Source: a virus
Direction: 5' to 3' (one strand)
IMG/VR virus record: IMGVR_UViG_3300027901_000227
Location: 1 to 22,562 of that record
Length of the DNA stretch: 22,562 nucleotides
Below the pieces are notes generated by a model. The model searched no databases. It had not been told where the DNA came from and was given only the letters and a program-made list of their open reading frames with translations. The translations under genes and the position numbers were made by a program. Shown here one piece after another: positions 1-15,786 of this stretch (the first letter of the stretch is position 1; each line of letters starts with the position of its first letter).

Positions 1-661
1 TACCAGTTGCACCTGGCACAGTAAATTTATTTGTATTAAAAGTAATATCTGATGTTGAGGAGCCAATAAGGTCAGCTCCTGCTCCAAGAGTTATAGATGC
101 AGTAGCACCTATAGCTCCAGTAACATCTAAAGTGCCTCCTACTACTGTATTACCTGTTGCTCCAGCTACTGTGAATTTGTTTGTATTAAAGGTAATATCT
201 GATGTTGAGGAGCCAATAAGGTCCATACCTGCTTGAAGACTAATACCTCCATCAGTAACGTTAAAAATTGAAGCCTCATCAACCTCAAATTTAAACTGAC
301 CTTTATTTGCTGTAGCGCTTGCAGTTTTAGTTTGAAATAATGCGTAGTCTAATGTTTGTGCTCCACCATCGAATATGGACTGAATGTTTAATACTTCACT
401 TGTAGTTGCCCCGATAGCTAATAATGGATTTCCATCATTTGTTGCATTCAATAAATCTAAATCAACCATGTAGCCTTTTCTATTATTATCAATAGTAGTA
501 AGTGAGTTTATTAACAATTTTCCAATATTAATAGCCTTTACACCGCCATCAAGACCATCAATAATATTTGAAATATTACCGTTAAGCCTAGCAGCAGTCA
601 TTGTTTGACCAGTAACCCATGTGTGGTTTTGTGTGATATAATTTTCAGCGATAATAACCAT
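1..661 (-). CDS. Tail fibre/appendage protein, N-terminal part (cut by window edge)
   Basis: The frame is open from the ATG at 661 to the window edge, giving 220 residues of a longer protein. The first 60 residues are mixed and could be the virion-attachment region. After that come Thr/Gly/Ala/Asn-rich strands such as GNTVVGGTLDVTGAI, typical of beta-rich phage fibre shafts. A 50-residue repeat is visible: the stretch beginning DLIGSSTSDITFNTNKFTV at residue 147 recurs at residue 197. The gene is last in the window's transcription order, after the ejection-protein genes and a putative promoter at 744-761. Its start is odd: the SD (AAGGAG) abuts the ATG with no spacer, so initiation may occur a few codons later. 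The fibre role is inferred from composition, repeats and position; the receptor-binding end is not in the window. Confidence 0.7.
   Translation of the reverse strand, partial: MVIIAENYITQNHTWVTGQTMTAARLNGNISNIIDGLDGGVKAINIGKLLINSLTTIDNNRKGYMVDLDLLNATNDGNPLLAIGATTSEVLNIQSIFDGGAQTLDYALFQTKTASATANKGQFKFEVDEASIFNVTDGGISLQAGMDLIGSSTSDITFNTNKFTVAGATGNTVVGGTLDVTGAIGATASITLGAGADLIGSSTSDITFNTNKFTVPGATG
2..223 (-). repeat. 150-bp-period direct repeat within the fibre gene
   Basis: Positions 2-73 and 152-223 are near-identical copies offset by exactly 150 bp (50 codons). The best-conserved stretch, roughly 31-73 against 181-223, differs at only one base. This is a modular fibre-shaft repeat that may continue beyond the window. 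Confidence 0.8.
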
Positions 662-2071: not shown

Positions 2072-3576
2072 TAATCTTTCCTCCTTATTAAAGAATCTCC
2101 AGATAATTCAAAGTTAATTTCTTTATTAATTATATCTTGAGAAATATTGCTAATCTCTTCCTCTGATAAATTTTCAGTAATGTAATTTAAAGTTTCAAAC
2201 TCTTCATCATCATCTAAATCATCTATAAGACTTGGTGTTTTCCTTATTAAGGCTTTTGAAGTCAATTTAGTAGCACCTTTACCAACATATTTTATACCAG
2301 TTTTATTTTCTGCAACTTTAACAGCGGTCTTTACAAATTGTCTTTGCAATGCATCATTTTGTGCCAGAAATGCCCCTATTACACCTGCCCCTTGATACAA
2401 TAATCCAGAAACAAATAACTTTGAGCCAGATAATATATTAACCAACTCTGATGACTTTGCTTTTTTTATTTTCTTCATCATTTCTTCTACACTTTCTCCT
2501 CCTCCTCCTGGAAGGTGTCCTCCCTCTTTTTTTATAAAATTACTAAACTCTTCTATTCCGTCAACGTACACTTGATATGCTTCTTTTTCAGTCTTAGCTA
2601 TTCCCTTAAGCTGATCTTTTCCTTTTTTCAACTTTTTCTTCAGTGGATCAAGTTTATTATCAAATTGAATTACTTTATTTTTTGCCTCTATTAACTTATC
2701 ATTAGCTCTTTTAATAGCATCACTTCTTTTATATTGACCTAATTTATTTCTTAACTTTGTTACTTTTTTTGTCGCAACTCTTCTTTTTCTATCTATTGCA
2801 TTTATTTGTTTAACTATATCTTTATTACTTGCATCTAATTTATTGCTTTTTTTAATTAAATTAAGTAATGGATCACCTGACTTTTTAAACCTTTTAAATG
2901 CTTTATGTAATTTACCAGCCTGCTCTTTTCCAACAAATTTGGAGCCATAATCAATACCTATATCTAACATGTCTTTAAAGGTTGTTGCAGTTCTACCAGT
3001 GATTAATCTTGAGAAGCTATTTAAAGCATCAAGTGACATACCAGAAATATTTAATGTTTTATCAATCTTTTTTAAAGAAGTTTTAATAGCACCAGAAGCA
3101 TTTAATGCTTTATCAATTTTACCAACACCTTTAATAATACCAGGAGTCATAACACCAATAGTTAAATCTGTTGCACCAACCACTGCTGCATCCTTTAGAG
3201 CTTCCTTTGGTTTTTTTCCTTCTGCTATTGAGGCTAAATACTCTGTTCCACCCATAATCCCTGAACTGAGTGCGTCGGCTACAAACTCTCCACCAACGGC
3301 TCCAGCTCCAACTCCAGCCACAGCTCCAGGTCCTGATGGAGCTGTAAGTGCTCCACCTATAGCTCCACCAATAAATGGTCCAGTAAATGATACACCTGTA
3401 GATAATACATCTCCAGTCCTTCGAATAATTGTTGGAAGGTTTTCTTTAACTTTATCAACGAAAGTCGCTTCTTCTTCATCAACATCAAATTGATTTAAGA
3501 ACGTCATATCTTCTGAGACAGCGACTTCTTCTTCATCAACATCAAATTGATTTAAGAATTCCATATCTGTAGACAT
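2071..3576 (-). CDS. Putative ejection protein with duplicated N-terminal acidic motif (501 aa)
   Basis: The product has three visible regions. Residues 1-40 carry a tandem duplication of FLNQFDVDEEE spaced 19 residues apart. Residues about 60-110 are a Gly/Ala-rich glycine-zipper-like segment (FIGGAIGGAL, GAVAGVGAGAVGG), as found in proteins that insert in membranes. The middle, about residues 220-330, is very Lys-rich and helical and probably coiled coil. The C-terminus is acidic (DDLDDDEE). The gene starts in a TAATG overlap with the upstream gene and ends in another with the downstream gene. No catalytic signature is recognised. A role in the DNA-ejection apparatus is inferred from the hydrophobic zipper, the coiled coil and the position after the tail genes. 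Confidence 0.55.
   Translation of the reverse strand: MSTDMEFLNQFDVDEEEVAVSEDMTFLNQFDVDEEEATFVDKVKENLPTIIRRTGDVLSTGVSFTGPFIGGAIGGALTAPSGPGAVAGVGAGAVGGEFVADALSSGIMGGTEYLASIAEGKKPKEALKDAAVVGATDLTIGVMTPGIIKGVGKIDKALNASGAIKTSLKKIDKTLNISGMSLDALNSFSRLITGRTATTFKDMLDIGIDYGSKFVGKEQAGKLHKAFKRFKKSGDPLLNLIKKSNKLDASNKDIVKQINAIDRKRRVATKKVTKLRNKLGQYKRSDAIKRANDKLIEAKNKVIQFDNKLDPLKKKLKKGKDQLKGIAKTEKEAYQVYVDGIEEFSNFIKKEGGHLPGGGGESVEEMMKKIKKAKSSELVNILSGSKLFVSGLLYQGAGVIGAFLAQNDALQRQFVKTAVKVAENKTGIKYVGKGATKLTSKALIRKTPSLIDDLDDDEEFETLNYITENLSEEEISNISQDIINKEINFELSGDSLIRRKD
3468..3558 (-). repeat. 34-bp exact direct repeat encoding duplicated FLNQFDVDEEE
   Basis: Positions 3468-3501 and 3525-3558 are identical over 34 bp and offset by 57 bp (19 codons). 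They encode the duplicated acidic/aromatic peptide at the N-terminus of the 501-residue protein. The identity at DNA level implies recent duplication or conversion. Confidence 0.85.
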
Positions 3577-4916
3577 TAGTTAAACAACCCCCTTCCGTAT
3601 CCATATTGAATAAGGATTCTTTTAGCTTTTATCCCCTCTGGGCTATTTGGATTTTTTTTATAAATTTCAAGTATCCTTTCTGCTTGTTTAAATGTAGGTT
3701 TTCCTTTTCCTTTATATTTATCTTTATCTTTATTTTCATCAATTTTCATTTTTTGTAATTTAAAATCATCTTTAAATATTTCATTAAATTTAGCCACGGT
3801 CATGTCTGTCCTTTTAGCTCTTCTTTCAAATAGATTATCAATAAATTCATTATTATTAGATACTAAATTATTTTCAATAGTATCGATATAAGATGCGAAT
3901 GCTAGAACATCTTCTTCATTCATCTTACCAGACTGGAATTTATTATAAACTCTTCTCATTCTATCCCATACTTGTTGAGAACCAGCTACACGTTTAACGT
4001 CTCTATCTGTCAATACACCTTTTTCACCAGCTAATGCTCTAGCTATACGAGACTGCAATGCTCCAACTAATGTAGGGTCATTTTTCAGTAAAGCCTCTCT
4101 TAATACACCAATATCTCTATGAGATGCTCTAAAATCTTTTAATTCAGCATTTTTAGTTAATAAATCTTCAACGTCATCAATTTCTTCAACTTGTGTTGCT
4201 GTATATTCAGCTCCAACACCTCTCTCTTTAACATAAGTCTTTCTATAACCAGAAGGGTCCTTTGTATCTATAACAAAAACTTCTTGACCTCCAGTAGTAC
4301 CAACTGGAACTTCTTCTAAGTTCTGTTTAACTAAATCACCTTTACTTAGTGCACCAACACTTTTAGCGTCAGCCGTCTCTTTTTCTTTTACTAATATTAC
4401 TTGTCGATTAGATGGAAGTGTTACAACAAATGGCTTAACACTAGGATCAGCTATTGCTGCTTCAGATGCATCCATTACTCTAAATCCCTTTTGTTGAAAA
4501 TCAATTAACTCTTTTGCATCTTCTTCTTGAATACCTACTAACATTTCCTGTTGCTTCTGTAGTAATTTAGCTCCTTCAACTTCCTTCTTTTGGCCTAATT
4601 CTTGCTGTTTTAATGCAACATTAATAATATTAGATACATCGGCTTTACCTATTAATGATTTTCCAATCTCAGAACCTATAGTTGCACCTAATACTGAATC
4701 TCCACCTTCCATTCCTCCACCAACGGTAGCTCCAATTCCTGCACCAATTAAAGAGGCAATACCACCTATTAAATTACGTTTTTCAGCTTCCTCTTGTTCT
4801 TCTCGATTTATACGTCTAACAAAACCAGTTGCCAAGGCAGATGTGATATCTCTACCTTGTTGCAATGACTGTTGTCCAAATCTTGCTGTTCCAAAAATAT
4901 CTGATAAATTCATCAT
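3576..4916 (-). CDS. Putative ejection/internal virion protein with glycine zipper (446 aa)
   Basis: I place the start at the ATG at 4916 (MMNLSDIFG), two bases after the upstream stop and preceded by AGGAGG. The frame also opens at 4967, but that ATG lies inside the upstream gene and has no SD. Residues about 33-75 hold a Gly/Ala-rich zipper (SLIGAGIGATVGGG, GATIGSEIGKSLIG). The rest is soluble, helical and charged, with a Lys/Asp-rich stretch near the C-terminus (KDKDKYKGKGK). No known enzymatic motif is seen. It is the third of five co-oriented genes that resemble a podovirus ejection-protein set. The function is inferred; the family is not recognised. Confidence 0.55.
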   Translation of the reverse strand: MMNLSDIFGTARFGQQSLQQGRDITSALATGFVRRINREEQEEAEKRNLIGGIASLIGAGIGATVGGGMEGGDSVLGATIGSEIGKSLIGKADVSNIINVALKQQELGQKKEVEGAKLLQKQQEMLVGIQEEDAKELIDFQQKGFRVMDASEAAIADPSVKPFVVTLPSNRQVILVKEKETADAKSVGALSKGDLVKQNLEEVPVGTTGGQEVFVIDTKDPSGYRKTYVKERGVGAEYTATQVEEIDDVEDLLTKNAELKDFRASHRDIGVLREALLKNDPTLVGALQSRIARALAGEKGVLTDRDVKRVAGSQQVWDRMRRVYNKFQSGKMNEEDVLAFASYIDTIENNLVSNNNEFIDNLFERRAKRTDMTVAKFNEIFKDDFKLQKMKIDENKDKDKYKGKGKPTFKQAERILEIYKKNPNSPEGIKAKRILIQYGYGRGLFN

Positions 4917-4917
4917 A

Positions 4918-5328
4918 TTATCTTTTCCTCCTTTTATCTTCGAAAGGATCATATTTAAACTGGTCATAAAATGAACTATTTTCTTCCCTTGTTAATGGTT
5001 TCTTGAAAACATTGTCCAAAGATAAATCCCTTGATGTAATAAGCTGATTAACAACTCCACCTAATTCTCTAATTCCTTTTCCAGTCACTTCATCAGGTCC
5101 ACCACCTGCTGATGAACCAACCAGTTGTCCAAGTTTTCCACCTATAGCAGCACCAGCTGGACCACCAAAAGTTCCACCTATAACAGTTCCTATAGTTCCA
5201 AAAATAGTTCCTAAAAGGTTGCTTTGTTGTGCTCTCCTTCTAGCTTCTTCTGCTTCCTCTCTTTCTTTTTTTCTTTGTCTACCTAATAAGATATTATCAT
5301 GCATTTCTTTGAAAATATTATTGTTCAT
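4918..5328 (-). CDS. Small glycine-zipper protein, probable ejection protein (136 aa)
   Basis: The N-terminal 35 residues are strongly charged (RQRKKEREEAEEARRR). A hydrophobic glycine zipper of about 35 residues follows (FGTIGTVIGGTFGGPAGAAI and onward), then a polar tail ending in a basic cluster (DKRRKR). This layout resembles small membrane-active internal virion proteins of podoviruses, but no specific family can be claimed. The stop lies one base before the ATG of the next gene (TAATATG), indicating coupled translation. The SD (AGGAGG) lies within the end of the upstream gene, about ten bases before the ATG. Confidence 0.55.
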   Translation of the reverse strand: MNNNIFKEMHDNILLGRQRKKEREEAEEARRRAQQSNLLGTIFGTIGTVIGGTFGGPAGAAIGGKLGQLVGSSAGGGPDEVTGKGIRELGGVVNQLITSRDLSLDNVFKKPLTREENSSFYDQFKYDPFEDKRRKR

Positions 5329-5330
5329 TT

Positions 5331-6725
5331 TTACATAACCCCTCCTGAAAGATCACTGCTAGATGTTGGACCACCAAAAGTACCTGAAAGACCTGATGGG
5401 ACATATTTTATAATAACTTCAGGTTCTTCCTTTATTTTATCGGCAATATCTTGTGTAATAGCACCTTGATCTACTAAAATATCAAGACCTTTATTTAAAT
5501 CATCATCTTCACCAGTTGACAATAAGGCAGTTCCTATAGCAATAGTTCTATTCTTCACTGGATCGTCAATAAATTGTGATGGGTCTTCATTAATAAGTTT
5601 CCATTGCTCTTCACCGATTCTTGCTTTCATTTTTCCAAAGTCTTTAACCGACAAACCTGCCATTTGTGCCATTTGTGCAAATTCTACTTGCTGGTCACTA
5701 GTCATTGAGACTCCTGATCCTAAAATACTAGTTATTAATTGGTTAGCTGCATCACCAGTAATATTTCCACTCGCTATTAATTGCAAGTCTCTGTTTTCTT
5801 TTTCGAAATTTAACTGCTTATCTGTTAATGCAGTTTTCAGTGTTCTATCGTAACTATTTTCAGCTGTTTTCCATTGTTGTTCTAATAGCTGCATTTTTTC
5901 AGCAGATGAGATTTGTTCACCAGCTAAGAATTTCTGAAGTGATCTATTTAATTCATTCTGCTCAACATTAAAGTCTATATTTGCATAAAATCTTTCTTCC
6001 TCTGAGGTTAATTGCTCATTTGCTAAGAATTTCTTTAATACCCTATCAGTTTCTGCTTCTGCTTTAAGGAAAGCTTGTTGATCTTCTTGAGTCAATGTTT
6101 CAAAAGCTTCCATAGCTTCTCTTTCAGATGTGGTAAATGCTTGGATAGCTTCTCTTTCAGTTTTTGTAAATGTTTCAGCGCCAAGTCTTTCTCCTGTCTG
6201 GAATTTCTCAATAGCTTCTCTTTCTCCTGTCTGGAATTTCTCAATAGCTTCTCTTTCTCCTTTTGTAAATGTTTCAGCGCCAAGTCTTTCTCCTGTCTGG
6301 AATTTCTCAATAGCTTCTCTTTCACCTTTTGTAAATACTTGTTGTAATTTAAGTATATCCTTTTCAGCAGCAATGCCACGTTTTTGCATTAACTCTCTAG
6401 TTTCTCTCTCTAAAGCACTCTCATCTCCTTGGAATTTACGTGATTTAGCTGACTCCGCTGCTGCAAAAGCTTGATCCATTGCAGACTGTCCAAGTTGGGC
6501 TCCTATACCTTGAGCAATTCTACCTATTTCTTTTGTTTGTTGTCCAAGTTGTTCTAATCGTATATCTCTACCAGCTCCACCAAATGCAATCCCTCTTGTA
6601 CCTAATCTCTCCTCAAGAGCTTCCTGTTCCTTGGTGAAAGCTTCCTGTAATGGCGCAACAGTAGATTGAAATGCCGCCTTAGCGATATCCTCTTGGCTTT
6701 GTGGTAATTCAAAATTTATTGACAT
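5331..6725 (-). CDS. Coiled-coil virion protein with tandem 11-residue (hendecad) repeats (464 aa)
   Basis: The most distinctive feature is an array of 11-residue units at residues 135-222, for example EREAIEKFQTG and ERLGAETFTKG, with eight consecutive copies in exact register. The register continues more loosely: DRVL at 227, NRSL at 260 and DRTL at 293 are spaced 33 residues apart, which is three hendecads. This predicts one long, nearly straight helical coiled coil over roughly residues 124-310. The C-terminal part (about 320-440) looks globular and helical, and the end is Gly/Ser-rich. The gene directly follows the nozzle-like gene and precedes the glycine-zipper genes, so a virion role in a tail or ejection core is inferred. 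The family is not recognised. SD GGAGG precedes the ATG. Confidence 0.6.
   Translation of the reverse strand: MSINFELPQSQEDIAKAAFQSTVAPLQEAFTKEQEALEERLGTRGIAFGGAGRDIRLEQLGQQTKEIGRIAQGIGAQLGQSAMDQAFAAAESAKSRKFQGDESALERETRELMQKRGIAAEKDILKLQQVFTKGEREAIEKFQTGERLGAETFTKGEREAIEKFQTGEREAIEKFQTGERLGAETFTKTEREAIQAFTTSEREAMEAFETLTQEDQQAFLKAEAETDRVLKKFLANEQLTSEEERFYANIDFNVEQNELNRSLQKFLAGEQISSAEKMQLLEQQWKTAENSYDRTLKTALTDKQLNFEKENRDLQLIASGNITGDAANQLITSILGSGVSMTSDQQVEFAQMAQMAGLSVKDFGKMKARIGEEQWKLINEDPSQFIDDPVKNRTIAIGTALLSTGEDDDLNKGLDILVDQGAITQDIADKIKEEPEVIIKYVPSGLSGTFGGPTSSSDLSGGVM
6060..6323 (-). repeat. 33-bp tandem repeat array encoding hendecad coiled coil
   Basis: Eight in-frame 33-bp units encode the 11-residue repeats EREAIEKFQTG, ERLGAETFTKG and variants. 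Several units are near-identical at DNA level, so the array could expand or contract by recombination. The repeats also create open frames on the opposite strand, which are not genes. Confidence 0.85.
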
Positions 6726-6737
6726 GTTCTATCCTCC

Positions 6738-8324
6738 TTATTCTCTATGTAGATTGTCGTAAAAAACAATAATTTTATTAATTCTTGTAAACTCATCAGC
6801 ATTAAGATTTTCGCATTTTATTGCAAGAAAGTTACCTCTTAATCCTGTTCTAAATTTCTGAGATTTAATACCAACATTAGTTACAGTACCTGTTCCAACT
6901 ACCGCTGTTCCAACAAGAGCTGTAGAGCTTGCTCCAGAAACTGTGTATTCTCTACCACTAATTTCAGCAGGAATAAAGTCATTTAACTTATATGTTGCTA
7001 CCTCAACATCCACATCCCAATTTTCCAACTCTGCAAAAACAATAATTGGATGAAATAATCGATATGTTGCTGTGTCTGGTTGTCCCGTAAATCTATCTGG
7101 AGGAGCTGACCAACCAACCTCTATAACTGACTCTATTGCAGAACTACTGTCATTATGTATTCCTCTAACCAATCTTGAAGCTGTAACTGCACTCTCATCA
7201 ACACAATATAGAACTGGATCACTAGAAACTGTTTGAACTGCATAAAAATCAAATTCAAAATTAGTAAATTGTGTCCAGAACGGTTGTAATGTTTGTATAC
7301 TTGGTATTTGTTCAAATTTTGTTGTATCTGCTGCATAACATATATCCATTTCATTACCTGTCGCGTCTGTTGAGTTGTATGATAATATATAAAGGTCTTT
7401 ATACAACACAGCATGCGCTCTTTGGATATTTCCTCTCTCAATGTATAAGTCTATGGTTTCCTGTATACGTTCAGAAACAACAGGACTTCCTGTTCCACCT
7501 AAAACATATTCTCCAGAGGTAAATGTAACATTAGGGTTAATTTTTCTAACTCTACCATCTGTTGCTAAGAAATAAACACCATCCTTTGTTCTTCTAATAG
7601 TATCTGGACTCAATGTTCCTGTCTCTGCATCTATCTTTAATACAGACCAAGACGAAACAGATTCAGCTGCATTTGGTATAATGTAAATACCTCTTTCCTT
7701 AAAGATAAATAATGAGTCACCCCAGATTTCTAGTCCTTGGATATACCCATCAACACCAGGAGCGATTTCTATATCATTAGTACCTAAAGCCCATGTCTCA
7801 AAAGCATTAACATCTGTGTAATAAAGAGTGTCTCTATTGTTAGCTACAAATAAACGATTTTTATGTAATTTAATAAACTCTCCATCTGTTGGTGAACTTG
7901 CAACCGCTGAAGCTGCAGGGACACTTGCTGTTGTGGTAATTTTAGTTACTGAGTCTGATCCATTTACTGCATACATATTGCGATTAGCGCCAAATCCAGC
8001 TTGTTCAAACCTCATGTATTGATTACTTGTAAGAACAACGCCTGCATCTACCCATCCAGAATTGTAATAGTAAATTTTAGTACCTTGGGTTAATAGTAAG
8101 AATTCAGCTGCTTCATTATTTTTATAATTAGCAAAACCATAAGCCTTTGAAGCAGCTGGTCCTGCTGCTAAATCTGTTCCTCCTCCTCGTTCCTCTAAAC
8201 CTCCATTTTGCAGGTAAAGATAATTATGATTTTTCATTAATCGTCCAAAGTCATAGGACGTCTTGTTTTGAGTTGTGTCCAAAGGAAGGAATCGAGAAAT
8301 TGTAACATTTGGTCTATTGCTCAT
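6738..8324 (-). CDS. Tail nozzle / packaged-DNA stabilisation-like protein (528 aa)
   Basis: I set the start at the ATG at 8324 (MSNRPNV), which follows AGGAGG by 5 nt; the earlier ATG at 8357 lies within the upstream gene. Residues 40-53 contain NGGLEERGGGTDLA, matching the NGxLxxRxGT-type signature near the N-terminus of T7 gp12-like nozzle proteins and P22 gp10-like stabilisation proteins. Repeated short beta strands follow (KLHKNRLFVANNRDTLYYTD, IWGDSLFIFKERGIYII, KDGVYFLATDGRVRKI), consistent with the beta-propeller-like fold of these proteins. The size is typical. It follows the adaptor gene as expected for the head-to-tail assembly order. The subfamily cannot be settled by eye. Confidence 0.8.
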   Translation of the reverse strand: MSNRPNVTISRFLPLDTTQNKTSYDFGRLMKNHNYLYLQNGGLEERGGGTDLAAGPAASKAYGFANYKNNEAAEFLLLTQGTKIYYYNSGWVDAGVVLTSNQYMRFEQAGFGANRNMYAVNGSDSVTKITTTASVPAASAVASSPTDGEFIKLHKNRLFVANNRDTLYYTDVNAFETWALGTNDIEIAPGVDGYIQGLEIWGDSLFIFKERGIYIIPNAAESVSSWSVLKIDAETGTLSPDTIRRTKDGVYFLATDGRVRKINPNVTFTSGEYVLGGTGSPVVSERIQETIDLYIERGNIQRAHAVLYKDLYILSYNSTDATGNEMDICYAADTTKFEQIPSIQTLQPFWTQFTNFEFDFYAVQTVSSDPVLYCVDESAVTASRLVRGIHNDSSSAIESVIEVGWSAPPDRFTGQPDTATYRLFHPIIVFAELENWDVDVEVATYKLNDFIPAEISGREYTVSGASSTALVGTAVVGTGTVTNVGIKSQKFRTGLRGNFLAIKCENLNADEFTRINKIIVFYDNLHRE

Positions 8325-8335
8325 AATCTCCTCCT

Positions 8336-9010
8336 TTAAATACGATTGTGGTTCCAAAATCTTGGGTCTAAACTAACACTTGCAGGACATGGTTTAAAAA
8401 AGGCTCTTAACTTCTGTTTTTCCATACTTTCGAATTGTACGTTAATTTGTAAATTCTTACTATCGAAGTCTCTTTGATAAAACCAAATTGCACTTTTATA
8501 CACGATTAACATATTATACTCTTTAGGTAAATCAACCGCTGGAGATAGATCATCTGCATCTAAATCTGTTGGTGCCAATAAACCATAAGCCTTTAATGCA
8601 TCAGTATCTGTATTTACAAAGTTTGTGTCGAATACGATTTTGTCATTTCTTTCTTCATAATACGACGGTGTATTGCCAGAAGTATTATCAAAAAGAGCGA
8701 CAGGGCTTACTATTTTATTTAATGCTTTTTTCTCAAGTCGTTTATAAACTCCAGAGTCATTGCTATATAGGTCTTGTATTTCAATAAATGTACTTGGTTT
8801 AGTTACCGTATTAGAGCCTGCAGTTGTTGCTATATTTGTAGCCTCTGACATAAGTACACTTGGTTGTATCTCATAAGCAATTTCTCTTTGAGCTTGATTT
8901 ATATATGAAATTAACAGCGCTTGTGTAGGATCAGTGGACGCACTTGTTGTGTCTAAATTTAAGTGATTCTCAAGCAATGCTAAAAGTTCTGAACCAGTGG
9001 AATTAGCCAT
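8336..9010 (-). CDS. Head-tail adaptor protein (224 aa)
   Basis: The 224-residue product has an N-terminal helical segment (ELLALLENHL...LLISYINQAQREIAYE), a beta-rich middle (TFIEIQDLYSNDSGVYKRLEKK, PSYYEERNDKIVFDTNF) and C-terminal helices (YNMLIVYKSAIWFYQRD). This resembles podovirus gatekeeper/adaptor proteins that bind under the portal. It starts a new transcription unit: a putative promoter at 9032-9049 and a terminator at 9058-9080 lie immediately upstream. The next gene, the nozzle-like protein, starts 11 nt after its stop. SD AGGAGG is well placed. The assignment rests on fold-like pattern and gene order. Confidence 0.7.
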   Translation of the reverse strand: MANSTGSELLALLENHLNLDTTSASTDPTQALLISYINQAQREIAYEIQPSVLMSEATNIATTAGSNTVTKPSTFIEIQDLYSNDSGVYKRLEKKALNKIVSPVALFDNTSGNTPSYYEERNDKIVFDTNFVNTDTDALKAYGLLAPTDLDADDLSPAVDLPKEYNMLIVYKSAIWFYQRDFDSKNLQINVQFESMEKQKLRAFFKPCPASVSLDPRFWNHNRI

Positions 9011-9105: not shown

Positions 9106-10227
9106 TTATATTATGAAAGAATACTTTGTATAGCTACATATTGGTTTATCATCTCTTATTTCAATTTGATCTTCTAACCAATTAGTTAACCCATCAATGA
9201 TCTTCCTTGGTGAATGATTTTTATTTAAAAGATATCGTAGTTTTTTGTGTTTTTTGTTTTCTATACCTAAAATTGTTTTCTCCCATTCTCCCCTTTTGGC
9301 AAGATATAAGCCTTTTCCTACCATATGCCTTGTTCTATCATTATTAAATGTCCTCACATTACTTACAACTATTGGCTTAGACATAAACAGTGCCTCTAAA
9401 ATTTTTAATTCAGATTTACAGCGATTAAAGTGTAAATCTCTGAGAGGAGCAATAAATATATCTATATCTGCTCTATATAGCTTCTGAGGGTACTCTGATA
9501 TGTGCACAGAGAGGTTTTTATACTTAATCCTATCACTTTCCTTTAGGAACGATGGTTTATAGCCTCCTAGATGGATAGATAGCTCATATTTATCATTTCT
9601 ATCAATGAAGTCAACTAATTCATCCCAGACAGACTCTAGATCGTGATCGTGACCAGAAGCACCTACATATCCAAGTCTAATCCTATCTTTTTGTTCCAGT
9701 GAATCTTTTTTATATGTAAAATTGTCTTTCCTAATGAAGTTTGGCATTATGTAGATATTCTGATTATATGGATATACCTCATGTCCAAGAAAATAATTAG
9801 TAACAATTACTCCATCTGATAATGCCAACTGGTCTTTAGTAAGTTGAAAATATTCCTGAGGGAGATCAATAATAGATGATTGAGAAACTGATGTAATGGA
9901 GTCATCAATATCAACGAATACCTTAACATTTGGATTTGCTTCACGGAGCACTTTAAATAATCTCAATGTAGCGGCAAACTTAAACCTCTGTACTATAATG
10001 ACATCAAAACACTTAAAAGCGGCAATCAATGACTGTTGGATTTTATCACTATGTTCACCAGTTGTTGAATGAAGGACGTATTCCCAAGAAATGGGAGCTC
10101 TGGGGTCACAACCCATATATTCAATATGAACTCCATGCTTTCCTTGTGCAATTAATGCTTCTGCAGGTTGTTCACATCTGTAAAAGTCAACAGATAAATT
10201 AAGTGTTGGTATGTATATGATTTTCAT
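9106..10227 (-). CDS. GT-B fold glycosyltransferase (GT4-like)
   Basis: The 373-residue length suits a single GT-B glycosyltransferase. The N-terminal Rossmann-like half begins MKIIYIPTLN and contains VIIVQRFKF and VFVDIDDSI. The C-terminal half begins near IRLGYVGASGHDHDL and carries IFIAPLRDL and ELKILEALFMSKPIVVSN, the GT4-like nucleotide-sugar-binding region with its acidic residues. It should transfer a sugar from an activated donor to a glycan or protein acceptor in the cytoplasm; donor and acceptor cannot be read from the sequence. It is the last gene of the glycan operon, starts in a TAATG overlap with the methyltransferase stop, and is followed by a terminator. The role in glycan assembly is inferred from the neighbours. 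Confidence 0.8.
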   Translation of the reverse strand: MKIIYIPTLNLSVDFYRCEQPAEALIAQGKHGVHIEYMGCDPRAPISWEYVLHSTTGEHSDKIQQSLIAAFKCFDVIIVQRFKFAATLRLFKVLREANPNVKVFVDIDDSITSVSQSSIIDLPQEYFQLTKDQLALSDGVIVTNYFLGHEVYPYNQNIYIMPNFIRKDNFTYKKDSLEQKDRIRLGYVGASGHDHDLESVWDELVDFIDRNDKYELSIHLGGYKPSFLKESDRIKYKNLSVHISEYPQKLYRADIDIFIAPLRDLHFNRCKSELKILEALFMSKPIVVSNVRTFNNDRTRHMVGKGLYLAKRGEWEKTILGIENKKHKKLRYLLNKNHSPRKIIDGLTNWLEDQIEIRDDKPICSYTKYSFII

Positions 10228-10841
10228 TATTTAGCCTCCTTTTTAATTGCCGATACTCCGATCCATTTAGCTTTCTTATTTTCCTCTTTATCAAAGAAGT
10301 CGGCAATACCAATTAATTTATAATCTATATCGAATTTATTAAATAGTTCCTGTATTTCTGGTATAGTGTATATCTTATTGTGGTGATGACCAAGTTCTTC
10401 CTCTTGTGGAAAGCTACATATTAGAGAGCCACCAACTTTAAGTACTCTGAGAGCCTCTTTAATACACACTGATGGATCAAATACATGTTCTAATACCTCT
10501 ATGATAGTAATACTTCTAAATTTGCCGTCAGGGAACCTAGAGAGGTCTTCAGCAGAACCTTGGAAGCAGGGTATGCCATTTTTATTACATTTCTTAACCA
10601 AAGCTGGAACAAGTTCTATTCCTTTAACATAACAATTATTTTCATACTTCAACATTAAACCAATAGCACCAGTATTACTACCAACGTCTAAATGCATGCT
10701 TTTCCTTGGTGTATTAGCAACTATGAATCTACCAAGATAGAATTCTGGTGTTCCTATTTTATATCTTCCTTTTGCAACACCGTCGCTATTATAATTATGT
10801 AAATGGTGTTGTTGTGCTTCTTCTTTAGAATTAAATTTCAT
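10227..10841 (-). CDS. Class I SAM-dependent methyltransferase
   Basis: The start is set at the ATG at 10841 (MKFNSKEEAQ), with AAAGGAG 5 nt upstream; the frame extends to 10862 but that ATG lacks an SD. Residues 51-58 (LDVGSNTG) are the SAM-binding motif I. EVLEHVFDP is the typical post-motif of type-11 methyltransferases, and LRVLKVGGSLICSFP is the later motif. The substrate is unknown; the neighbouring glycosyltransferases and the TylF-like enzyme suggest a sugar or glycan. The gene starts 2 nt after the TylF-like stop and ends in a TAATG overlap with the GT-B gene, so it belongs to one polycistron. Confidence 0.85.
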   Translation of the reverse strand: MKFNSKEEAQQHHLHNYNSDGVAKGRYKIGTPEFYLGRFIVANTPRKSMHLDVGSNTGAIGLMLKYENNCYVKGIELVPALVKKCNKNGIPCFQGSAEDLSRFPDGKFRSITIIEVLEHVFDPSVCIKEALRVLKVGGSLICSFPQEEELGHHHNKIYTIPEIQELFNKFDIDYKLIGIADFFDKEENKKAKWIGVSAIKKEAK

Positions 10842-10843
10842 AA

Positions 10844-11509
10844 TTACTCCTTTATTAGCCAAGCAGCTGACCTATCTATAAGTTCTGGTTTCTGTTTAAT
10901 TTTATTCTCTTTTCTAAAATCAACCCAAGCCTTTCGTGCGCCATTCCAAGCATTATAGTCATCCATTATTAAAATACCGCCTTTAACAAGCTTTGGATAA
11001 AATTTCTCAATGGCAGCTTTAGTTGGTAAGTAAAAATCTACATCTATACGTAACAGAGCAATCTTTTCTGGTATAAAATCGACTTCCTTAGTAATATCTC
11101 CCTTATGATAATGAATAAGTTCTTTCGGATACATTGTACGTGCCATATTTATCTTAACTTCATCCAGTGTACCAAGACACCACTCACTATATGTACCTTT
11201 GTTATACTTATTATACTTTCTCAATGTGTCTTCATATGTTTTATTTTTTTTACAGTCTTCTTCTGTTGGTTTTACCATTCCAGCAAATGTGTCATATAGA
11301 TGGATATCCTTTAATGTTAAATGATTCATTAGAGATAGAGCCATACACATAGATGAACCACCTTTAGCAACTCCTATCTCTACCATATCTCCTTGGCATT
11401 GACTTACCTGCCATACAGCTTTATGTAGGTGATTCATTCTTGTTTCATTACACAAAGAATACTTTAATGAATTTGAAATATCATTAGCAGAATATTGATA
11501 GCATCCCAT
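10844..11509 (-). CDS. TylF/MycF-type macrocin O-methyltransferase-like protein
   Basis: This 221-residue protein has the family pattern. GDMVEIGVAKGGSS at residues 40-53 is the SAM-binding loop. IHLYDTFAGM with PTEED follows, then LLRIDVDFYLPTKAAIEKFYP and GGILIMDDYNAWNGARKAW, where acidic residues would coordinate the divalent metal. Known TylF/MycF enzymes methylate sugar hydroxyls on macrolides, and relatives occur in glycan clusters, so O-methylation of a sugar is likely here. It starts in a TAATG overlap with the amidase stop (SD GGGAG), and the second methyltransferase follows. O-methylation is often a capping step that ends or masks a glycan chain; that role here is inference. Confidence 0.85.
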   Translation of the reverse strand: MGCYQYSANDISNSLKYSLCNETRMNHLHKAVWQVSQCQGDMVEIGVAKGGSSMCMALSLMNHLTLKDIHLYDTFAGMVKPTEEDCKKNKTYEDTLRKYNKYNKGTYSEWCLGTLDEVKINMARTMYPKELIHYHKGDITKEVDFIPEKIALLRIDVDFYLPTKAAIEKFYPKLVKGGILIMDDYNAWNGARKAWVDFRKENKIKQKPELIDRSAAWLIKE

Positions 11510-11976
11510 TATTTATCTCCCTTTATCTTTTCCAATAATATTAAAATGACTTCAATTAATCTGCGTATTGGTCTTTTTGACTCTTTATCAAGAAATGACA
11601 ACATACCTGCCAAGTTTCTACCTGGACAGGTTTTATTTGTTGTATATTCGCAGTGGTTATGTATTTTAACATCATGCTTCATTCTCAATCTTGTTAAAAG
11701 TGAAATAAGTGATTCAATCTGTTTAGTCTTTGGTGCTCTTTTATCAAAATCTCCTATTACACAAATATGGATTGAGTCATTATTGTGATGATAAACTCCT
11801 GCACCAATTTTAGACACTGGGCGGCCTATTTTAATGGTGCCGTATTGACCTATTACAAAATGATACCCGATATCCCTCCAGCCTCTATTTAAGTGCCATT
11901 GTTTAATGTCTTCAAATGTTGTAGAAAATGGAGATTCACTATGATGTAAAAATATACGATTAATTTGCCTCATCAT
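11509..11976 (-). CDS. N-acetylmuramoyl-L-alanine amidase (Amidase_2/T7 lysozyme-like)
   Basis: The 155-residue product resembles T7 lysozyme and the PGRP/Amidase_2 family, Zn-dependent enzymes that cut the bond between MurNAc and L-Ala in peptidoglycan. Likely zinc ligands are H11 (in FLHHSES), H108 (in HNHCEYT) and C117 (in TCPGRN). The typical core GWRDIGYHFVIGQYGTI lies at residues 32-48. There is no signal peptide. The C-terminal tail, RRLIEVILILLEKIKGDK, is an unusual hydrophobic/basic helix that might touch membrane. No holin or spanin is seen next to it. It lies inside the glycan operon between the dehydrogenase-like gene and the TylF-like gene, an uncommon place for an endolysin. It could serve lysis or wall remodelling during glycan attachment. 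Confidence 0.85.
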   Translation of the reverse strand: MMRQINRIFLHHSESPFSTTFEDIKQWHLNRGWRDIGYHFVIGQYGTIKIGRPVSKIGAGVYHHNNDSIHICVIGDFDKRAPKTKQIESLISLLTRLRMKHDVKIHNHCEYTTNKTCPGRNLAGMLSFLDKESKRPIRRLIEVILILLEKIKGDK

Positions 11977-12130
11977 CTATTTCCTTTCTAGTAAAATCAT
12001 AGACGACATCTGATATTTCAATACCGTGCTCCCTGCAAAATACTAAACGACATCCATTCATTGTAATTTTATAAACATTTGAAAAATCTATCTCTTTATT
12101 ACATTTATCGCATCTGTAAAATGTTGACAT
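11960..12130 (-). CDS. Small Cys-rich putative zinc-binding protein (56 aa)
   Basis: A short gene starting MSTFYRCDKCNKEI. It has a CxxC pair at residues 7 and 10 and a second cluster with C27 and C32-x-x-H35 (FCREHG), which together could bind one zinc. The SD is very strong (GGGAGGGGAG, 5 nt before the ATG). Its end overlaps the amidase start by 17 bp, so amidase translation is probably coupled to it. It lies between the dehydrogenase-like gene and the amidase. Function is unknown; a zinc-ribbon adaptor or regulator is possible. It is real by SD, overlap and motif, but has no family name I can give. Confidence 0.7.
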   Translation of the reverse strand: MSTFYRCDKCNKEIDFSNVYKITMNGCRLVFCREHGIEISDVVYDFTRKEIDDEAN

Positions 12131-12156
12131 CTTACTCCCCTCCCATTATCTCATTT

Positions 12157-13068
12157 TTATTCTACAACTCCACCATGTGTATTTCTACATCTGTAATGTG
12201 GGTCATCTAAGTTACTTCTTAACATATCACTTTTTTTCTCTTCTGCTTTCAGTAAACTACAATCAACGTTATGATTATTAAATTCATCCATTATAGCTTT
12301 TGTATCTTTGCAAATACAATGAGAACAACGACCTAATTCTCCTTGATATGGGATACTATATGGGTATTCACCCATTCTAGGGTCTAATTGCCAAGCTTTA
12401 ATAATGTCGTTAAATGGAACTGAGTCTTCCTCTTTAACTTCTTCGTGTAATTCATAAAATTCACTCATAAATGTGCACTTCATTGCAAGGAAGCAATTCT
12501 CCATGTACTTGATTAGAGCTGCATCAACAGCTGAGACGTGTGACAATTTTGGAGTACTCCATGTGCTATTTAGTATTGAGTGGTCCATAACCATCTCTTT
12601 AACTGTGTTAAAAGCATCCTGTGAACCACCAATGATCCAAATATTACTATATAACTGGTCTCCAATGGTGTTTTTAGCAGATAGATACTCTGGAGAGATT
12701 GCAATATCAAGGTTGACACAAACATTCTTAAGTATCTTTACGTGACTTGGTAATATAGCAGATTTAATCAATACAACTGGTTTTTTATTAAGAGAGAAAG
12801 CCAAATTATCTAAATCCATCATTACTTCATTTATAATATCTGGTACATAGCCTTCTGATAAACTATATGGAGTTGGAACGCCAACCATTATTAAATCAGC
12901 ATGACATACTAAATCTCTTTTTGTAAAAAACTTCTTCTGATCTGGCTCTTTTGCAATATCATTAATCATAATATGACATTTAGGTGCGAAAACATATTCA
13001 AAAGCTTCACCTAAGAAGCCATATCCAATAATGCCTAATGTTCTTTCTTTTTTAACGTTTTTCATCAT
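12157..13068 (-). CDS. UDP-glucose/GDP-mannose dehydrogenase-like protein, short form
   Basis: The 303-residue product covers the NAD-binding and central domains of the nucleotide-sugar 6-dehydrogenase family. GYGFLG at residues 15-20 is the dinucleotide-binding loop. All key catalytic positions appear: E127 in SPEYL, K187 and N191 in LIKYMEN, and C251 with D255 in HCICKDT. The family normally has about 400-450 residues with a C-terminal sugar-nucleotide-binding domain, which is absent here. Four-electron oxidation to a uronic acid is plausible if a partner supplies the missing domain, but the true substrate is uncertain. ATGs at 13068 and 13065 are both possible; the second has better spacing (6 nt) from AAGGAGG. 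That SD lies inside the upstream zinc-ribbon gene. Confidence 0.8.
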   Translation of the reverse strand: MMKNVKKERTLGIIGYGFLGEAFEYVFAPKCHIMINDIAKEPDQKKFFTKRDLVCHADLIMVGVPTPYSLSEGYVPDIINEVMMDLDNLAFSLNKKPVVLIKSAILPSHVKILKNVCVNLDIAISPEYLSAKNTIGDQLYSNIWIIGGSQDAFNTVKEMVMDHSILNSTWSTPKLSHVSAVDAALIKYMENCFLAMKCTFMSEFYELHEEVKEEDSVPFNDIIKAWQLDPRMGEYPYSIPYQGELGRCSHCICKDTKAIMDEFNNHNVDCSLLKAEEKKSDMLRSNLDDPHYRCRNTHGGVVE

Positions 13069-13165
13069 TTTCCTCCTTATTACACTCAGGACACCTTTTA
13101 ACGCCCTCTTTTAAAAGTAACCACCCTAATCCACCACATGCATCACACCCATTAAAGCACACCAT
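13052..13165 (-). CDS. Zinc-ribbon mini-protein, DnaJ-like CxxCxG half finger (37 aa)
   Basis: The 37-residue peptide begins MVCFNGCDACGGLGW and continues to RCPECNKEE. C7-x-x-C10-GGLG and C25-x-x-C28 form a four-Cys pattern like half of a DnaJ-type zinc finger. The ATG overlaps the upstream glycosyltransferase stop (TAATG), and its 3' end overlaps the dehydrogenase-like start by 17 bp while supplying that gene's SD. It therefore bridges two enzymes by translational coupling. Its own SD is weak. Function is unknown. It could bind a partner protein or RNA, or mainly serve coupling; the clean Cys pattern argues for a real product. Confidence 0.65.
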   Translation of the reverse strand: MVCFNGCDACGGLGWLLLKEGVKRCPECNKEENDEKR

Positions 13166-13848
13166 TATAAAGATACCTGTATACCGTATTCTTTATACAT
13201 CTTTTCTTTAATTTTAGCAGCCTTCTTTCTATTTCTATTTGTGTTACCTTCTATTTTTTGTAATAGAACATTTTCACAGGCTGCAAATTCAATCCCTGCA
13301 TTATGCATATCCAGTAACATAAATTCAAAAAGATCGCTATCCTTTGTTTTTACATGATATGGATGTGCTAGGGCAACTTCTCTTCTGTAAGCCACAGTAG
13401 GGTGTGATATTGTGGTCTTACTCTCAAAATCCCAAACTACAACTGGAACTTCTTGCTTAATGAATAAATTCTCTGCTGACCGTATAGAATAAGCTGAATA
13501 CATAACTCCTTTATGTGGATATTTAGTAAATAGCTCCTGAGCGGCCTCAGAGCGATGTTTAGTGTATAAATCTGAGTCACAGACCATAATGATATCACTT
13601 GTTGCTAATTTGTTCCCTTCATTGCGTCTAAAGGCCGCTCCAAGGCTCTTAGAATGGAGAATTAGCTTACCTCCAGTGTCTTCTATCTGTTCCTTGAAGG
13701 TTTCTAGGATTTCTGGTGTTGCATCAGTGGAACCATCATCAATAATAATGAGCTCAACTGGAATTACTTGATTTAATAGAGAACGAACACATTCTGCAAT
13801 AGTTGACTGTTCGTTTCTAACTGGTAATACAGCGCTAATTGTTAACAT
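13165..13848 (-). CDS. GT2-family (GT-A fold) glycosyltransferase
   Basis: The 227-residue protein starts MLTISAVLPVRNEQSTIAEC, the classic GT2 opening. DDGSTD at residues 37-42 and DSD at residues 91-93 are the nucleotide-sugar and metal-binding motifs. SLGAAFRRNEGNKLA matches the conserved GxxxARNxG region with small changes. There are no membrane segments, so it acts in the cytoplasm. It starts in a TAATG overlap with the two-domain glycosyltransferase and is followed by the zinc-ribbon peptide in another TAATG overlap. Donor sugar and acceptor cannot be read. It probably adds one sugar in the glycan built by this operon. Confidence 0.88.
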   Translation of the reverse strand: MLTISAVLPVRNEQSTIAECVRSLLNQVIPVELIIIDDGSTDATPEILETFKEQIEDTGGKLILHSKSLGAAFRRNEGNKLATSDIIMVCDSDLYTKHRSEAAQELFTKYPHKGVMYSAYSIRSAENLFIKQEVPVVVWDFESKTTISHPTVAYRREVALAHPYHVKTKDSDLFEFMLLDMHNAGIEFAACENVLLQKIEGNTNRNRKKAAKIKEKMYKEYGIQVSL

Positions 13849-15512
13849 TATTTATCCTCCATAATTTCTTTTATTCTTTTAACATAATTTTCTTGACTCA
13901 TTTTTTCATATACTAAATTATCTACCAATCCTTGCTCTGCGTATCCTATTCCTCCTCTTGTTTTACATTCCATTATTTTATTTATTACTTCATTCTTACA
14001 GTCCTCATAGTGAAGGATATCTTGGAAAGACAAACCAATATCAGCAAATGGTAAATGGCTCGATGTTATAACTCGTCTGCCAGATAACATAAACTGCAAT
14101 GGTAAATGAGGTAAAGAGTCATGAATAGTTGTTCTCACTATTGTTGAGCAGCTATTGATAAACTCTGGCATATCCTCGCTTGGTATTTTACCACAAAATT
14201 CAACATTAGCAGTTGTGAACCTTGCTTTGCCACCAAAGAACTTAAACTTAACATTTGGCATTGCTTTTGCAACTTCCCACATTAAATATAAGTTAGACTC
14301 ACCATTATTATTATCAAATGGGTCCTGTGTATTGAAAAAGTTCATATTTGGCGTATCTGAATAATAAACAGCAACTGTAAACTCTGCAGGTTGAATTGTT
14401 GGTATGAATCTTTCAGGTTTATACAGTGGTGTGTATAATAATTCAGTTTTAATACCCATTTTCTTCATTTCTTTCTGTAAGCGCTCAGAATTAACTAATA
14501 ACGTTGCTTTATTCTTCTTTAAGTACTTCTTAATACGGTCTAGAGACGCAGGAGACTGTTTTTCCCATAATTGGAATACATCAGTACCAACAAAGTGAAT
14601 TATTGGCTTACCTACGGAAAATTCAAGGTGGTTCTTTAATGCAGATACTGGATGATTGAATCCACCAATGATATATGTATGTGTCCAATTATCAAAGTCT
14701 AGATTTGCAGGATATATTCCATGTGTTCCACCTTGTGCTGTCCCAGCGTAGTCAGCATTTAGTATTTCAGCTCTTTGTTCTGCTTGTAAAGGGCAACCAA
14801 AAGTTGTTACAACTAATGAACTATCCTCTATGTTATTAACTTCTCTAAAAGTTTTACATTTATCCTTTAAAGGTATGTTTATTCCAGAAATATTACCTTC
14901 CACTGATGGTTCTGTTAGGAAAATAGTTTCTTTAAGGTAATAACCTTTACTACCAGCTTTTACCATTCTATAAAACAGGTCCCAATCTTGGAAATAATCT
15001 AATTCCTCGTTAAACCTTGCAAAATTATCAGTTCTCATCATACTCATAGTTGAAATATAATTCATTGTTCTCAATGTGTATGGATTAAATGGTCTTGATG
15101 TATATTTATGACCGTTTGTGTATTCATAATCACCATATATGAAATCTATATCCTCTTTGTCTAAAATATCAACCATATTCTGTAAAATACCAGTTTTTAC
15201 CATACAGTCAGAGTCAAGGAAAAATAAATACTTTGGCTTAGATGTTCCAACTGCATTGATTATTGTATCATATCCAAGATTACGAGCAGCTGATGCTCCT
15301 TTATTCTCTGGTAGGAACTCATAATTTAATTTAAAGGTTAATTCACCTTCCTCTATCTTTGATGTTATTCGTTTCTCCAATTCTTCATCTCTGCCATCAT
15401 TAACCAATGTCACTGTGAAGTCTTGAAAATCTTGATCTTGTAATGATTCTAAACAAAAATCAATTATATCTGCATCCTTGTGCGCTGGTATAATAATAGC
15501 TAGTTTACTCAT
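13848..15512 (-). CDS. Two-domain glycosyltransferase: GT2 (GT-A) fused to GT-B-like domain
   Basis: The start is set at the ATG at 15512 (MSKLAIIIPAHK), which has AAGGAGGG 5 nt upstream; the frame opens at 15548, but that ATG lacks this signal. The product has 554 residues. Residues 1 to about 220 form a GT2 domain with NDG at 38-40, KGASAARNLGYD at 71-82 and DSD at 100-102. The second part, from about residue 230, looks like a GT-B glycosyltransferase: IIGGFNHP, KPIIHFVGTDVFQLW, LLVNSERLQKEM, FKFFGGKARFTT and DSLPHLPLQFMLSGRRVITS. One polypeptide could therefore add two sugars in sequence. The start overlaps the SpoVG-like stop by 8 bp. Donors and acceptor are unknown. Confidence 0.85.
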   Translation of the reverse strand: MSKLAIIIPAHKDADIIDFCLESLQDQDFQDFTVTLVNDGRDEELEKRITSKIEEGELTFKLNYEFLPENKGASAARNLGYDTIINAVGTSKPKYLFFLDSDCMVKTGILQNMVDILDKEDIDFIYGDYEYTNGHKYTSRPFNPYTLRTMNYISTMSMMRTDNFARFNEELDYFQDWDLFYRMVKAGSKGYYLKETIFLTEPSVEGNISGINIPLKDKCKTFREVNNIEDSSLVVTTFGCPLQAEQRAEILNADYAGTAQGGTHGIYPANLDFDNWTHTYIIGGFNHPVSALKNHLEFSVGKPIIHFVGTDVFQLWEKQSPASLDRIKKYLKKNKATLLVNSERLQKEMKKMGIKTELLYTPLYKPERFIPTIQPAEFTVAVYYSDTPNMNFFNTQDPFDNNNGESNLYLMWEVAKAMPNVKFKFFGGKARFTTANVEFCGKIPSEDMPEFINSCSTIVRTTIHDSLPHLPLQFMLSGRRVITSSHLPFADIGLSFQDILHYEDCKNEVINKIMECKTRGGIGYAEQGLVDNLVYEKMSQENYVKRIKEIMEDK

Positions 15513-15786
15513 CAGAACCCTCCTTACCACGCAAAAACTCGCCAACAATTGGCCTCACAGCCTCAAGTAGCGAGTTATATGTTTCTGAATTAATTGGGTA
15601 GTAGTATTGCAGGTTGGTATCTTGGAATTTCTTCGAAGGACATAATAAATACAATGTTCCATCATTCTTTACTTTAACAGCTATGGAAGATAGGTATAAA
15701 TTGTTATCATACACACAATTTACAAATCCAAGTAGACCATTTTTAAATGTAACGGGTATAAAATTAATGTTTGTGAATTTATTCAT
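15505..15786 (-). CDS. SpoVG-family protein
   Basis: The 93-residue product matches the SpoVG pattern. LLGFVNCVYDNNLYLSSIAV corresponds to the usual LxAxASVxxDxxFVVxxIxV strands, TLYLLCPSKKFQDTNLQYYY to the conserved MPSKK region, and YPINSETYNSLLEAV to the HPIN helix. Cellular SpoVG is a small dimeric nucleic-acid-binding regulator affecting septation, capsule and virulence gene expression in Firmicutes, and a DNA/RNA-binding protein in Borrelia. Here it is the first gene after a putative promoter (15816-15833) and leads the glycan operon, so a regulatory role on this operon or on the host envelope is plausible but unproven. The alignment is by eye; the N-terminal 12 residues and C-terminal tail differ from typical members. 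Confidence 0.75.
   Translation of the reverse strand: MNKFTNINFIPVTFKNGLLGFVNCVYDNNLYLSSIAVKVKNDGTLYLLCPSKKFQDTNLQYYYPINSETYNSLLEAVRPIVGEFLRGKEGSDE

Follow-up and report, generated by a model that had tools for sequence, protein, structure and literature searches.

A new family of hendecad-repeat proteins encoded after the tail nozzle gene: candidate ejection proteins with an expandable stalk

Gene P464 and its genomic setting

The window analyzed here is a complete 22,562-base IMG/VR virus record, all of whose large genes lie on the minus strand. Read along that strand, the genes run in the order terminase, SU10-type portal, capsid, SU10-type adaptor, nozzle, the gene that we call P464, four further genes of the virion cluster, and a partial tail fibre gene. 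The tail fibre is assigned by sequence and position. The terminase matches phrog_2 (4e-18), the capsid matches phrog_1357, and the adaptor gene (8336..9010, minus strand) matches the Pfam family SU10_adaptor at 3.3e-16. The nozzle gene (6738..8357, minus strand) matches phrog_3287 at 1e-10, a family that also matches the SU10 nozzle protein gp17 at 8e-116, confirming the original prediction that P464 lies right after a nozzle gene. P464 itself (5331..6725, minus strand) is an ORF of 464 amino acids that starts at an ATG at 6725, behind a ribosome site, AAGGAGG, at 6739-6733. Its start lies 12 bases after the nozzle stop codon. The gene stands 3′ of the tail nozzle and before the tail fibre gene, and relatives occupy the equivalent position at 12 other loci. 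The listed nozzle ORF starts at a TTG, and its homologues align from the methionine at codon 12 (8324-8357 being the stretch concerned); this internal ATG is probably the true start, judging from the alignment, in which case the overlap with the adaptor gene would vanish.

Downstream of P464 lie a 136-amino-acid gene (4918..5328, minus strand), which has weak phrog matches, and a 463-amino-acid gene (3576..4967, minus strand), for which we found no family match in PHROGs or Pfam. Each encodes a Gly-rich hydrophobic segment, and both are putative partners in an ejection cluster. By sequence, Gly/Ala-rich hydrophobic segments are present in four genes downstream of P464. The gene at the end of the cluster appears tail-fibre-like from the sequences of ORF 2-661 of the window and of L074:10441-12285; the partial copy at window positions 2-661 contains an internal repeat, DLIGSSTSDITFNTNKFTV. 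On the other side of the adaptor, the interval between capsid and adaptor (9106-15548) holds a glycosyltransferase and methyltransferase cassette with an amidase (11509-11976; phrog_822, 5e-35). A similar cassette is found at the same place in L067 and L066, indicating that the structural operon of these phages includes a set of sugar-modification genes.

P464 had no family match at a useful E value in Pfam, PHROGs or the PDB, and tblastn of P464 against annotated phages returned no relative. Searches of viral contigs with P464, the nozzle, and the capsid, as well as two scans of genome contigs for a host, likewise gave no match. P464 represents a new protein family that occupies a familiar genomic slot and carries an expandable hendecad stalk.

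Hendecads, 33-residue repeats and predicted structure

The hendecad array of P464 (residues 135-222; 6060..6323, minus strand) consists of eight units. Counted from residue 135, units 1 to 7 comprise EREAIEKFQTG (three times), ERLGAETFTKG, ERLGAETFTKT, EREAIQAFTTS and EREAMEAFETL, and unit 8 (TQEDQQAFLKA) is degenerate. Phe occupies unit position 8 in every one of the eight, and Glu occupies position 1 in seven. The lag-11 self-similarity of the protein was 146, compared to a maximum of 44 in 2000 shuffles, and the eight in-register units that had been read from the sequence at the outset are therefore real. In the DNA, units 1, 3, and 4 agree at all 33 positions and units 2 and 5 at 30 of 33, and TRF detected a tandem repeat at 6145-6327 with a 99-bp unit, 1.8 copies, and 95% matches.

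The array is followed by three 33-residue repeats (residues 223-321; 5763..6059, minus strand), which are expanded in the relative L067/L073. The claim that these repeats are marked by DRVL, NRSL, and DRTL at residues 227, 260, and 293 held up as well: the lag-33 score over residues 223-321 was 48.5, a value reached by none of 2000 shuffles. Hydrophobic periodicity over residues 106-209 was 15.1 at 11/3 (0/2000 permutations) vs. 0.19 at the heptad period, in agreement with the proposal that the repeats are hendecads and not heptads. Extending the interval to residues 106-318 raised the 11/3 value to 18.2, which indicates that the 33-residue repeats roughly stay in phase with the hendecads. The proposed continuation of the register is roughly correct as to phase, but the 11-residue signal within the 33-residue repeats is weak: taken alone (213-318), they gave an 11/3 periodicity of only 4.4 (0.011), and lag 11 over residues 223-321 was not significant (0.13). 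By our own geometry, the conserved Glu at position 1, Ala/Gly at 4, Ile/Ala/Met at 5, and Phe at 8 would share one face of the hendecad wheel and would correspond to the a, d, e, and h core positions.

AlphaFold monomer models were built from 13 sequences and are of low confidence, with a mean pLDDT of 57 for P464 and 52 for the relative L076. The P464 model contains an unbroken 104-residue helix at residues 106-209 (pLDDT roughly 48-68), followed by breaks at 210-212, 235-240, and 268-273 in the 33-residue repeats, where the later helices are short. The NEQLTSEE and GEQISSAE repeat boundaries look like helix ends and caps, and the predicted model breaks there. The single rod of about 190 residues first envisaged thus has partial support, from the one long predicted helix, and is weakened by the predicted breaks beyond it. 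Ahead of the long helix, the N-terminal domain (residues 9-96; 6438..6701, minus strand), delimited from alignments and from the P464 and L076 models, is predicted to be a helical hairpin with an RGIAFGGAG turn: helices 9-43 and 51-96 of P464 lie around the conserved GIAFGG turn, and the corresponding helices of L076 span residues 16-51 and 59-110. The C-terminal helical domain (residues 343-441; 5403..5699, minus strand), recognized by a C-domain profile and predicted with pLDDT up to 79, is kept in relatives that have no repeats. The P464 model has no C-terminal knob or beta-prism, and a Foldseek search of the L076 model against PDB and BFVD gave no match at E <= 0.001. As predictions, the models support helix, not assembly.

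Relatives and length variation

A terminase scan and a portal scan yielded 37 + 1 loci. Of these 38 records, 22 were searched using P464 and the nozzle as queries, and two contained P464 homologues, the others being distant or fragments. Profile scans of IMG/VR with the nozzle and the N-domain brought the P464 family to 13 members, the window included, and a wider N-domain profile scan returned 12 loci on the same contigs and no new member. In all 12 relative loci, the P464 homologue lies directly 3′ of a nozzle-sized ORF, the nozzle being identified by phrog or tblastn in the window and at three loci, and by size and N-terminal sequence at the others.

The N-terminal helical hairpin is common to the family and the C-terminal domain is present in most members, the conserved parts of P464 being residues 1-98 and about 343-392. 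What lies between varies greatly in length. Two of the 13 members, L071 and L076, are repeat-less proteins of 240 and 248 amino acids with 48 residues between the N- and C-terminal motifs. At the other extreme, L073 has >400 residues made up of 33- and 44-residue repeats and is cut off by the end of its contig. The remaining members have insert lengths between these extremes; L073 and L080 were given no insert length, as their C-terminal motif was not matched by the search pattern. In L080:3471-5105, L077:5944-7167, and L079:3515-4762, the C-terminal tail is replaced by an unrelated Cys-containing segment, FTVLCTELYRQGKLSRKIFVADC; L077 and L079 are incomplete, both running off the available stretch.

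Comparison of close relatives showed changes in whole repeat units. One 33-residue indel in the repeat region and one residue at the C-terminus separate L074 from L075; between L077 and L079, the difference is one 11-residue indel plus one residue at the trimmed end. The expectation that near-identical 33-bp units would lead to length variation is thus borne out between related phages. The nozzle alignment of L074 and L075 is free of gaps, with 525 amino acids in both, and nozzle and adaptor measure 531 and 237 amino acids in all seven of the loci L077-L083. In the repeat region of L074/L075, dN/dS is 0.052, indicating that the repeat sequence is under purifying selection in that sister pair. 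The repeats are looser in the L077-L082 group, with dN/dS of 0.73 for L077/L079 and 0.27 for L078/L081; the latter pair also shows several indels that are not multiples of 11 and lie outside the hendecads.

Possible role in ejection and comparison with known systems

We searched 50,697 phage records with the repeats only, at E values up to 10. The window repeats matched 15 records, nine of which are annotated as DNA pilot protein, all from microviruses; the other six were PTXU04, its second record, Pondi, HelliStehle (Bas95), one P22-like record, and one unannotated microvirus. The repeats of L074, which have a different unit, matched six records, every one a DNA pilot protein. In contrast, the reversed window repeat gave one match, to a Vibrio phage and not to a pilot protein, and an ordinary helical stretch of the window searched likewise gave none. 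The pilot-protein matches are individually weak (E 0.006-6). In a permutation test, the P464 unit matched the units of microvirus 677 and PTXU04 (0/500 permutations reached the BLOSUM match), and it did not match the family's own L075 units (0.13). The repeats thus best resemble those of Microviridae DNA pilot proteins, a likeness in sequence that is weak but order-specific. Candidates put through comparison and rejected were the phiX174 H tube (hydrophobic r 0.49, p 0.53; BLOSUM p 0.71) and Bacillus phage Page gp18 (p 0.49). Lag-11 repeats do occur in the tail regions of Page (gp18, L010:17622-18875) and of MT835662, a contig from a human-gut phage whose capsid protein is related (a 341-amino-acid protein, L006:11628-12653), and consist of different residues, being Gln/Trp- or Asp/Tyr/Arg-rich. 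The E. coli phages PTXU04 and HelliStehle (Bas95) have 11-residue repeats of the SEREASQAY type (L002:17893-18747 and L003:7893-8876); the gene for this repeat protein stands just before a very large gene, and the protein is probably also ejection-related.

Our best reading is that P464 is stored in the head as an ejection protein and that its stalk is an expandable coiled coil. That it is an internal virion (ejection) protein, encoded by the first gene of an ejection cluster after the nozzle gene, has in our estimate a probability of about 0.5. This reading draws on the position of the gene directly 3′ of the nozzle in all 13 members and on the SU10-type portal, adaptor, and nozzle around it. 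The nozzle gene of SU10 is followed on its 3′ side by the gene for the needle gp18 and next by those for the ejection proteins gp20-24, which the SU10 study reports in virions but not in the release intermediate (PMC9509320). The ejection reading also draws on the size of the repeat-less members, which is near that of OM ejection proteins, given in another study as 196 amino acids for T7 gp14, 229 for P22 gp7, and 240 for K1E gp34 (PMC8954989). Four further points favor it: repeat-only searches match mostly DNA pilot proteins while the reversed query does not; four downstream genes have Gly/Ala-rich hydrophobic segments; in EBPR podovirus 1, gp28, just after the stabilisation (nozzle) gene, belongs to the DNA-ejection family phrog_598 (1.6e-8); and the repeat unit sequence is under purifying selection in L074/L075. 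The description of the central region as a stalk is based on the 11/3 periodicity, the change in copy number by whole units, and the purifying selection in one sister pair.

Under the ejection reading, the N-terminal hairpin and the C-terminal helical domain would form the working core, conserved also in repeat-less relatives, and the hendecad array between them would serve as an expandable helical stalk. Several copies of P464 may associate side by side along the Ala/Ile/Phe stripe to form a coiled coil or a helical tube, which once ejected may extend the DNA channel past the nozzle or serve as its lining there. From the identical units and the 11- and 33-residue indels, we infer that the unit number grows and shrinks via recombination between near-identical 33-bp units.

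Profile tests for homology to known ejection proteins were negative or lacked power. The GxxxxG turn offered a lead to gp7/gp14 homology. With hhalign, P464 was compared to P22 gp7 and gp20, SU10 gp20-23, and others, and no ejection candidate exceeded 2% probability; the positive control, the window nozzle vs. SU10 gp17, also failed (0.22%), which makes this negative outcome uninformative. In a rank test with the N-domain profile, four named ejection proteins did not score significantly high, with 11 of 120 column-shuffled profiles doing as well. A wider set of nine beat all 120 shuffled profiles, but that set was chosen after the motifs were known and the reversed profile came close. The rank-test signal is mostly a composition effect. 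Our searches turned up no known gp7/gp14-type protein that has an expandable hendecad stalk, and the open-access literature that we searched yielded no account of podovirus ejection proteins carrying a hendecad array.

The main rival to an ejection protein is a tail needle or plug equivalent to P22 gp26 or SU10 gp18, that is, a coiled coil that shuts the nozzle and pierces the outer membrane. The gene follows the nozzle directly, as gp26 follows gp10 in P22 and gp18 follows gp17 in SU10, a long helix is predicted, and PHROGs and Pfam revealed no other needle candidate in the window. However, the coil is absent from L071 and L076, the model lacks a knob or beta-prism at its C-terminus, and the P22 and SU10 needles score no better than random with the N-domain profile (62/120 shuffled profiles do as well), and we consider a needle unlikely. 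The original prediction had offered a plug and a part of the ejection channel as roles; both are possible, and we favor an ejection protein.

The 11-residue units could instead form an amphipathic helix on or across the host membrane rather than a coiled coil. Repeats with 11/3 periodicity are known for membrane-binding helices, such as those of apolipoproteins, synuclein, and LEA proteins, and the strict 11/3 periodicity of P464 without a heptad signal would suit such a helix. The apolar stripe (Ala/Gly, Ile/Ala, Phe) is narrow, though, with an almost invariant Glu inside it, and the array has a net charge of -8 over 88 residues, all of which makes membrane binding quite improbable. We are more doubtful still of an assembly factor or scaffold-like protein that builds or fills the head and is absent or minor in the mature virion: P464 is helical, acidic (pI 4.65), and poorly conserved, as such a factor might be, but a separate 294-amino-acid scaffold-like gene (no family match; placed by position only) lies upstream of the capsid, and P464 is syntenic with nozzle and tail genes. 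A ruler, as the original prediction had it, or a tape measure, with repeat number setting tail or channel length, is very improbable, because although length varies by repeat units, sisters differ by 11 or 33 residues with equal nozzle and adaptor lengths, two of 13 members lack repeats, and these phages have short tails, a type built without a ruler.

Few parts of the virion vary as much as ejection proteins or are as poorly understood. The natural series described here, with no repeats, few units, 17 hendecad-lengths in the window (residues 135-321), or >400 residues between conserved ends, would provide a ready test of whether channel length matters in DNA entry. We can also imagine, as a speculation with the odds well against it, that a portable 11-residue block, [ST][GS]ERxAxxxF, forms the wall of an extendable DNA-entry channel in phages as unrelated as ssDNA microviruses and short-tailed dsDNA phages, its copy number being rapidly tuned by slippage between identical 33-bp units and the channel length adapting to the host envelope.

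Among known systems, SU10 (Kuravirus) has an SU10-type portal, adaptor, and nozzle followed by a gene cluster, as around P464, whereas SU10 gp18-gp23 are, by eye, not hendecad arrays, and the hhalign comparison, a weak test, detected no sequence homology to P464. Proteins of the P22 gp7/T7 gp14 type (PHROG 598) resemble the repeat-less members in size and, like the P464 family, have a Gly-containing turn between helices. The Microviridae DNA pilot proteins of the bajarodmic viruses share the 11-residue unit pattern [ST][GS]ERxAxxxF/Y and the order-specific search match; the likeness, which is weak, is confined to the repeats, with no whole-protein homology to P464, and microviruses, unlike the P464 phage, are ssDNA viruses with unrelated capsids. 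Convergent evolution of helix-forming units would explain the likeness as well as a common origin would. The phiX174 H tube, a decameric helical barrel with three hendecads, has 11-residue periodicity in a DNA conduit (PMC7354561); H differs from P464 in residue pattern and shares this periodicity. If the likeness to microvirus pilot repeats reflects a shared function, it would offer a signature by which conduit-forming helices could be recognized in sequences from different phage classes.
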